From NCBI RefSeq assembly GCF_900170025.1, contig NZ_FWEX01000006.1, positions 2,509,236 through 2,573,235 on the forward strand: DNA of 64,000 nt. The letters are read 5' to 3'. The stretch is from Nitrospira sp. ND1 (GTDB taxonomy: Bacteria; Nitrospirota; Nitrospiria; Nitrospirales; Nitrospiraceae). This document shows positions 2,295-39,289 of this stretch, piece by piece (position 1 is the stretch's first letter; each line of letters opens with the position of its first letter). A program made the position numbers and the translations under genes. Under the pieces are notes generated by a model, which saw only the letters and a program-made list of their open reading frames with translations, searched no databases and was not told the DNA's origin.

Positions 2295-3188
2295 ATGGGA
2301 CGGGCCGGCCGGATCGTACGCGGAATCATGGTGCTTGGCAGTGTGCTGCTGCTCGCTTCCTGCGGCGATTCCTTCAATGACGCCTATTGTGAAGCCAACA
2401 ACCACCGCAATCAGCAAACCGTCGAACACCTCACCAACGTCCTCGAGCAAAAGCGCAATCAGCCCGGACTCTATCTCGCGCGTGCCCGCTGCCACTACTT
2501 TCTCGGCGCCTATGCGCAAGCCCTGCAGGACGCGTCGGAGGTCATTCGCCGTCTGCCCAATAAAGCCGATGCCTATCTCCTTCGCGCCAAGGCAGGGAAG
2601 ATGCTCGGCCAGATTCCACAGGCGCTGCAAGACTACAGCGCTGCCATTAAATTCCAGCCGACCGCCGAAGCCCATTATGGCCGTGGATTGACCTACGTGC
2701 GGGAATATCAGGGGAAGGATCGCGAAGCCCTGGAGGATTTCACCGCCGCCATTCGCCTCGATCCCAAACACGTCGGCGCCCACGCATTCCGCGCTCAAAT
2801 CTACAGCCGCCACGAACAGTTTCAGCACGCACTTGCGGATTCGGAGCAGGTGCTCAAGCTCGATCCCACCACCCCCAATGCCTACTGCAATGTCGGCTTT
2901 GCGCACTATGCGCTGGGGCATGACGCCGAGGGCCGCAAGTTTCTCACCACCTGCTACCAGAAAGATGCCGATCCCCAGACGCGCGGCTATTACGAAACCG
3001 AAGTGAACAAGGTGCTGTATGCGCGGAAACCGAAGCGGAATTCCGGCGGGAGCTACGTTGCCGAAGGGCGGGAGGTGACGCCCTACGACCGGGAAATGGA
3101 ACGGCAGCACAATGTGTACGAGAGTTTGCGGAATTCAGGCTTCAATGATCGGGCCGAGGCTTGCCGGACGGATGGGTCGAAATGCTAG
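2295..3188 (+). CDS. TPR-repeat lipoprotein
   Basis: The 297-residue protein begins with a lipoprotein signal whose lipobox is LLLASC, giving a lipidated cysteine at residue 23. The mature part consists of tandem tetratricopeptide repeats (for example YLLRAKAGKMLGQIPQALQD and HAFRAQIYSRHEQFQHALAD), which form a scaffold for protein-protein contacts at the outer or cytoplasmic membrane. The last 70 residues are polar and lack repeats. A GGAGG site precedes the ATG. The partner is unknown. A hairpin repeat begins four bases after the stop and may terminate its transcript. Confidence 0.85.
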   Translation: MGRAGRIVRGIMVLGSVLLLASCGDSFNDAYCEANNHRNQQTVEHLTNVLEQKRNQPGLYLARARCHYFLGAYAQALQDASEVIRRLPNKADAYLLRAKAGKMLGQIPQALQDYSAAIKFQPTAEAHYGRGLTYVREYQGKDREALEDFTAAIRLDPKHVGAHAFRAQIYSRHEQFQHALADSEQVLKLDPTTPNAYCNVGFAHYALGHDAEGRKFLTTCYQKDADPQTRGYYETEVNKVLYARKPKRNSGGSYVAEGREVTPYDREMERQHNVYESLRNSGFNDRAEACRTDGSKC

Positions 3189-3192
3189 GAGA

Positions 3193-3287
3193 GGGGCGGC
3201 CTGAGTAAGCCCCCTTGCTCGCGCAACGCGCGGCCTGAGAAGGCCCTCGTTGGACGACGCGCAGTGGGGGCTCACTCAGGCCGCCCC
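3193..3287. repeat. Family A hairpin repeat, copy 1
   Basis: Two 22-base arms (3193-3214 and 3266-3287) are complementary at 21 of 22 positions and enclose a 51-base core. The core carries GCTCGCGCAACGCGCGGCCT and CCTCGTTGGACG, with an inner GGCCT/AGGCC stem. The same core recurs at 21910-21961 and 39148-39198, while the arms differ in sequence but remain complementary. It lies directly after the TPR lipoprotein gene, so it may serve as a terminator or 3'-end stabiliser. Confidence 0.85.
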
Positions 3288-3863
3288 TTGAGGGAGTGAG
3301 GGGGAAGTGGAAGGAGCATTAGACACGGCCGGCTCACCGTCTCGCCGGCGTGCGCAGACGTGACGCTCCTTATTCGTCGCGTCGTGCACCTCGCAGACCG
3401 CGCACAATACACGGAATCCTTACCCACGCGTGGAGGTAAAGCCACCTCACGTTTTTGTTCTCCGCGGTTCGACTTATCCTGACTCAAGGCGATCTTGTTG
3501 TCATTTCCCTCCGTACCGATTTTTCTCCGCCAAGCATTCATATCAATCCCTCCGCTACACGGCAATCATGCGTGTTGACCTATTACGAACAGAGTGCTAG
3601 ATGGAAACTGCGTCTCACGTGGGTCGCCCTAAAAATGCACGTATTTATGGTTAGGAAAGTTTTGACAACATGAGTGAGCACGGGTATTCTCCCTGCCTGA
3701 ATGTGAGCCATGTACGATTTTGTCAGCCTGATTCGCGCATGCATCAAAGTTTTTGAATGTGAATTCAATCTCGGTATCATTCCAGCTGCACATGGTGGAT
3801 TGAGGAGTTGCTCGAAGGCGAAATTTATACTACTCGTCTATGTTCAATTGAGGAGGCAGCCCC
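3288..3863. other. Intergenic region and left edge of AT-rich island
   Basis: No convincing gene is present. Composition changes from GC-rich to AT-rich at about 3.45-3.6 kb, which I take as the left edge of the island. A TATACT hexamer at 3826-3831 could be the -10 box of the operon that follows; no well-spaced -35 box is evident. No tRNA or direct-repeat attachment site was recognised. Confidence 0.4.
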
Positions 3864-21523: not shown

Positions 21524-21883
21524 ATGGGCCCGACGAAAGCAATCGTTCAAGGACAGTCGCTCCACGAAGCCGTGAGCGGCAAACTGATACGGGACGGATT
21601 TACGAGCCAGCAGGCGATGGAAGATTACGTGCGGCAGCACTATATCGTCATGCCGGTACGCGACAATGCCGGACAGCCCTGGCAGTTGGACGGGAAACCG
21701 GTCTACTGTCTGCACGGTGTGCAATACGAAACGGTCGATGACCAGAAGGTGCATCTTTCCCGATGCCCGGATTGCGGCGGCATGGGGATCAGGGCGGATG
21801 AACTCACGGTCGATTCCGACTGTATTCGCTGCACCGCCTGTGGCCATGAGTTTGATGCGCGGTTGGAGATGATGGAGACATAG
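21524..21883 (+). CDS. Zinc-ribbon protein
   Basis: The 119-residue protein ends in a four-cysteine ribbon, CPDCGGMG and later CIRCTACGHEFD, expected to bind one zinc ion. The N-terminal 80 residues (LHEAVSGKLIRDGFTSQQAM, then YIVMPVRDNAGQPW) form a small mixed domain I do not recognise. It may bind nucleic acid or protein. An AGGAGGCGG site precedes the ATG. It is flanked by a family B hairpin upstream and a family A hairpin downstream, so it is probably a separate transcription unit. Confidence 0.7.
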   Translation: MGPTKAIVQGQSLHEAVSGKLIRDGFTSQQAMEDYVRQHYIVMPVRDNAGQPWQLDGKPVYCLHGVQYETVDDQKVHLSRCPDCGGMGIRADELTVDSDCIRCTACGHEFDARLEMMET

Positions 21884-21887
21884 GAGA

Positions 21888-21983
21888 GGGGCCTGCCTGC
21901 TCAGTGTCTTTTGCTCGCGCAACGCGCGGCCTTAGAAGGCCCTCGTTGGACGCGCGCAGTGAGACACCGAGCAGGCAGGCCCC
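21888..21983. repeat. Family A hairpin repeat, copy 2
   Basis: The 22-base arms (21888-21909 and 21962-21983) pair at 21 of 22 positions; their sequence, GGGGCCTGCCTGCTC and onward, is unrelated to the arms of copy 1 past the first bases. The enclosed core (21910-21961) is almost identical to that of copies 1 and 3. It begins four bases after the zinc-ribbon stop. Confidence 0.85.
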
Positions 21984-39124: not shown

Positions 39125-39221
39125 GGGGCGTGCAGTCGGGCGCTCCTATGCTCGCGCAACGCGCGGCCTCAGAAGGCCCTCGTTGGACGCGCGCACTCAG
39201 GAGCACCCGACTGCACGCCCT
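39125..39221. repeat. Family A hairpin repeat, copy 3
   Basis: Arms of 23 bases (39125-39147 and 39199-39221) pair with 21 Watson-Crick pairs, one G-T wobble and one A-C mismatch. The enclosed core (39148-39198) matches copies 1 and 2. It lies upstream of prfC and 70 bases left of the IS1182-type element, in a zone with further broken copies. Confidence 0.85.
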
Positions 39222-39289
39222 GGGTGAGGGGTAGGAGGGGATTCAGTTGGACGGCGCGCAGTGGGAGATCAACCAGCCCCCATCCCTAG

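Follow-up and report, generated by a model that had tools for sequence, protein, structure and literature searches.

Three hairpin-forming repeats lie in the window, the stretch of 64,000 nucleotides of Nitrospira sp. ND1 that was analysed here, and they probably represent a Nitrospira-specific, non-autonomous element that is mobile as a unit and is best read as acting at the level of DNA. The three copies (Table 1) are where the original prediction placed them; each half of the core has exactly three occurrences in the window, a number that none of the shuffles attains. Each copy is a hairpin of about 95 nt, in which a conserved apical core of 47 nt is carried by arms that are unrelated from copy to copy yet complementary within each. 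Copy 1 follows a gene encoding a TPR protein (2295-3188) and copy 2 a gene encoding a zinc-ribbon protein (21524-21883), and both units start 4 nt after the stop codon (3186-3188 and 21881-21883, respectively), the spacing that had been predicted. Copy 3 is differently situated: it is flanked by the start of the gene for RF3 and by a gene for a DDE transposase (both on the minus strand), with no co-oriented gene before it.

Table 1. Hairpin units and associated modules in the window
Feature	Position	Strand	Remarks
Unit copy 1	3193..3287	+	hairpin; core 3216-3263 (48 nt, one extra A); CM 103.9 bits
Tail motif GGAAGGAGCATTA after copy 1	3309..3321	+	common to unit tails in other species
Block X (extra hairpin block) and remnant of left core half CTCGCAGACCGCGCAC	3326..3406	+	optional module, same arrays
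Unit copy 2	21888..21983	+	hairpin; core 21912-21958; CM 109.1 bits
Unit copy 3	39125..39221	+	hairpin; core 39149-39195; CM 99.8 bits
Orphan right half of another unit (GTTGGACGGCGCGCA and 3' arm)	39246..39287	+	directly after copy 3; read against array structure

From the apex outward, the core folds into a 5-bp stem with a four-base loop, then CAACG/CGTTG, CGCG/CGCG with a GA bulge, and TGC/GCA. Below these pairs each copy has a small junction loop, followed by an arm of 22-25 pairs. The apical stem-loop occupies the 21 nt between AAC and GTT. Along the strand, a unit consists of a 5' arm (~24 nt), the core, and a 3' arm, to which many copies add a tail of ~45 nt that ends near GGAAGGAGCATT; the 5' flank is purine-rich (GAGAGG, AGAGGAGGGG). 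Right junctions are variable, and neither terminal inverted repeats nor a clear target duplication was recognised. Inspection by eye found no GTAG foot at the base of the hairpin and, in the units read in this way, no T-tract after the arms on the sense strand, the sign of an intrinsic terminator; the T-tracts that were seen are those of outer B palindromes. Rfam gave no match in the window at the gathering score, and at E<=1 the unit matched only miRNA models, all below threshold. Block X (3326-3390 in the window; also at L191, L200, L229, and L230) combines GGCCGGCTCACCGTCTCGCCGGC with a second hairpin and, in several species, is an optional part of a unit's left half.

The hairpin family is essentially specific to Nitrospira. 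The exact core pattern occurs in more than 120 stretches, and all among the 80 matches listed come from Nitrospira or from Nitrospirota MAGs. A covariance model (R1) gives 16-20 hits in the 4.45-Mb genome of ND1 (a few being opposite-strand readings of the same sites) and 7-42 copies in each genome of the same genus, with 25/25 genomes positive. Among genomes of other genera, 1/16 has a match, single and weak. Collections of phage, plasmid, and viral sequences matched neither the core with its tail nor the core pattern. The literature searched contains no earlier description of these repeats; one survey of REP sequences that names Nitrospira only tabulates counts.

That arms differ between copies while remaining complementary within each was the central claim of the original prediction, and it holds across the family. 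In an alignment of 42 copies (A1), built after leaving out 10 of 60 copies that folded poorly, every arm pair varies and 22 vary on both sides; double-change cells number 201, as against 87 after shuffling and 74-172 in slid controls. Because poorly folding copies had been excluded from this alignment, a second test of the arms took 165 units found by the core motif only. Their median arm score is 16.4, compared with 9.1 once arms have been exchanged between dissimilar units, and arm complementarity lies above the 95th percentile of swapped arms in 79% of the units. Arms that are not complementary, which the prediction had counted against itself, do occur in some chimeric copies, but these are a minority. 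The chimeric units at L074, L084, L086, L106, L126, and L137 combine arms of two types that meet at the core, a structure that recombination within the core would be expected to give. The core also covaries once divergent cores are included: 9/18 pairs are changed on both sides (43 cells, 16 after shuffling), and one core pair reads C-G in 15 of 30 copies but G-C in 14.

A mismatch of A with C near the same place in the stem had likewise been noticed, and it resolves into two sites. In 77 non-redundant units, stem positions 8-10 contain 34 A.C and 4 G.T, and positions 16-18 contain 37 A.C and 5 G.T; taken together, these windows (picked after viewing the profile) have 71 A.C vs 9 G.T, while the remaining stem positions have 36 A.C vs 32 G.T. 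The A.C mismatches cluster at distances of ~9 and ~17 pairs from the core, and they do so even when the arms are unrelated. The excess persists in 29 units whose arms are at most 50% alike, and in a 60% non-redundant set, 46/73 A.C fall within the windows, where random placement gave a mean of 20 and a maximum of 36 (20,000 trials). The A.C sites become G.T wobbles when read on the opposite strand. DNA parameters predict the bottom strand to be more stable in 47/50 units (46 for the core alone, 39 for the arms alone), and RNA parameters in 36/50; these results draw on the G.T/A.C counts that also underlie the enrichment at the two sites. Outside these sites, the G.T/A.C ratio is 0.89 (95% 0.59-1.39). 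RNA stems normally favour G.U (the G.T/A.C comparison made here has no positive control), and selection on a stem in the sense RNA would not be expected to leave G.T and A.C equally common. The wobble counts thus provide no indication that the arms are selected at the level of RNA.

At orthologous loci, with flanks 72-94% identical, 549/574 core pairs are unchanged. The arm pairs comprise 389 that are unchanged, 43 changed on one side but still paired, 70 broken, 17 doubly changed and compensated, 16 doubly changed and broken, and 103 gapped (in all these counts, some locus pairs were entered in both directions). The core is therefore constrained in place, being conserved at flank identities of 72-91%, whereas the arms drift, with partial compensation, and for the most part remain paired. 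At the locus of copy 2, the same arms are present in G000, G019, G008, and G006, where the protein identity of the gene is 74-100%; in G022 the 5' arm has decayed, and in G007 these arms carry a different apex. A cluster change in the G008 copy (CT to GCG) has left its 3' core exactly reverse-complementary to its 5' core. Template switching creates and repairs hairpins (PMC8794818), and the change in G008 fits the signature of such a repair. At the locus of copy 1, sister species carry different units, often a full unit and then tails and orphan right halves of older units. A clean empty site was not found for the window copies, since these intergenic regions change too fast; in sister species the corresponding spots are occupied by different units or palindromes. 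Occupants also differ upstream of a gene that looks gatC-like (from its translation, by eye): L125, L071, and L291 have a unit of this family after the stop codon, and L123 has a palindrome of a second family at the same spot.

Mobility is supported by nested units. At 20 loci, an e-type unit starts directly after TGCTCxCxGA(A/G)C in the core of another unit. What has been inserted is a whole unit (arms, core, and tail), in the same orientation as the outer unit, and different loci have different outer 5' arms. Downstream, the outer unit resumes with its right half and matching arm in ~10 cases (L024, L040, L044, L087, L090, L091, L098, L102, L108, and L113); the automatic search for outer arms has a noisy null (99% level 15.85 of 22), and much of the weight is borne by the resumption of the outer core motif, judged by eye. 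The orthologous loci L110 and L052 have flanks 93-94% identical, and where the former has an intact f-type unit, the latter retains only the right half of that unit, to which an e-type unit is joined. Units are also nested, at many loci, within palindromes that have A/T tracts. These constitute a second Nitrospira family of ~120 bp, GCAGGATGCTGAAAAAG...GGCCTTTTTGAGCATCCTGC, whose A and T tracts resemble those of a bidirectional terminator (L022, L021, L092, L038, and others). Since whole units are nested in other units and in palindromes, it is the unit with its arms and tail that moves. The original prediction had proposed a mobile core that inserts into the loops of terminator hairpins. It is supported as to mobility and entry into hairpins, both the cores of units and the terminator-like palindromes with A/T tracts, but not as to a core that moves alone and adopts arms already in place: the insert brings its own arms and tail, and no orthologous locus with the same arms but no core was found.

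The placement of units relative to genes is biased. Exact-core copies in 8-kb loci (with genes called by a simple codon-score method, here and below) number 47 sense and 2 antisense between tandem genes, 16 between convergent genes, and 9 between divergent genes. Of these presumably young copies, 63/74 lie downstream of a co-oriented gene, mostly right after the stop codon, and the sense cases mostly start within ~30 nt of it. The orientation bias between tandem genes is weaker, 17 to 7, in a sample not chosen by exact core, namely the 34 classifiable copies found as CM hits, mostly in closed genomes (17 sense, 7 antisense, 5 convergent, 5 divergent). Relative to dnaA, 87/118 copies are co-directional with the replication fork, modestly exceeding the baseline set by nearby genes, 44/74 of which (59%) run with the fork.

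Could the hairpin be conserved for its shape as RNA, as a structured element at mRNA 3' ends (a stabiliser, a processing site, or a terminator)? Sense orientation with a start ~0-30 nt from stop codons, a core frozen at orthologous loci, and covariation would all be in keeping with this, and the selected shape that was the alternative offered by the original prediction is upheld by the covariation, the fixed positions of mismatches, and the frozen core. The RNA version of that alternative is weakened, however, by G.U being no more frequent than A.C in the arms outside the special sites, although RNA stems normally favour it. Also, the sequences read have no U-tract after the arms, copies occur between divergent genes, whole units jump into one another, and there is no corresponding Rfam family. 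We regard an RNA element as possible but rather unlikely, though core constraint and sense placement may leave room for a role in mRNA beside mobility. It is less likely still that the hairpins are the neutral product of template switching during replication, with a recurrent core seeding foldback copying that makes and repairs complementary arms to no function. The process is a known maker and repairer of hairpins (PMC8794818), and both the G008 change and the partly matched arms at L107 suggest its action, but it does not readily account for A.C positions fixed in unrelated arms, for a core far more conserved than flanking coding DNA, or for the bias toward sense orientation.

Two known systems might have supplied the enzyme. 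Like REP/BIME sequences and the RAYT-associated REPINs, the units are short, multicopy, intergenic palindromes, clustered and at times nested, often at the 3' ends of genes, and probably mobile without coding capacity. They differ in that the stem is much longer and the apex is conserved while the base varies; no GTAG foot was recognised by eye. Genes for Y1_Tnp (RAYT, a Y1 HUH transposase) are present in 19/29 genomes, but none was found in the other 10, a third of the total, among them the closed genomes G009 (19-21 units) and G004 (7 units). Moreover, the only Y1 gene of ND1, a single RAYT-like gene at L139 (G000:C5:725832-726155), has no flanking unit when the locus is read through. RAYT was therefore rejected as the driver, and it is extremely unlikely that the units are REP elements moved by it. 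The repeat near that gene, of the form TTGCAAGACCTGACCCCA, is unrelated to the hairpin family. The other system is the integron, whose attC sites have a sequence-variable stem read by shape, carry AAC/GTT triplets, fold from the bottom strand, and lie after stop codons. The units share these traits, their stem being putatively read by shape, their bottom-strand fold predicted to be the more stable, and the triplets lying at the point of insertion. As to the motifs, GTTGGAC conforms to R' (GTTRRRY) but GTTCGAC does not, and the left sides GCGCAAC/GCGGAAC do not conform to R'' (RYYYAAC). It is the apex of the units, not the base, that is conserved, no cassette genes were seen between them, and an integron integrase scored above the cut-off in only 1/8 genomes tested, ND1 having a C-terminal fragment of 132 aa (L140, G000:C6:1605433-1605819). 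The integrase was rejected as a general driver on these last grounds, and attC-like sites are a most improbable identity for the units. G007 (L300) has two full-length integron integrases, unlike the seven other Nitrospira genomes tested. The searches for RAYT and integron integrase left no candidate enzyme.

If the units are mobile elements acting at the DNA level, then their working form would be a hairpin of single-stranded DNA from the bottom strand, recognised by a putative recombinase or transposase. The core would be the part read by sequence, and the arms, with their two wobble sites, the part read by shape. Pairing of the arms would be maintained partly by selection and partly by template switching at replication, and placement after stop codons may reflect tolerance or a mild role at the 3' end of the mRNA. 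One can go further and imagine, though it is quite unlikely in all its parts, a recombination system that reads folded bottom-strand hairpins independently of integrons and IS200/IS605, in which a putative enzyme universal to Nitrospira inserts whole units into resident apices at AAC/GTT, building nested hairpins after genes, and in which the two wobble sites mark the strand used.

Small mobile hairpins whose palindromic clusters merge and shuffle, with no known enzyme, have been described as mitochondrial double-hairpin elements, sponge RHEs, and yeast GC clusters (PMC2800124, PMC4478555). In those elements the stems are conserved and the loops vary, whereas the Nitrospira units conserve the apex, and the base of the stem varies with covariation. 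Insertion into palindromes has a parallel as well, in the insertion sequences that target REP palindromes (PMC1525189); in Nitrospira, the insert is itself a small hairpin unit of the same family.

The family offers hundreds of natural copies with which to ask how a stem can change completely and yet keep its pairing; for RNA stems, this question has been debated between selection and template switching. For those who annotate genomes and RNA, the lesson is that covariation by itself is no proof of an RNA. The search for the enzyme is now well posed, as it would be expected in every Nitrospira genome and would need neither RAYT nor an integron integrase. For this ecologically important genus, the nested insertions also provide dated transposition events.
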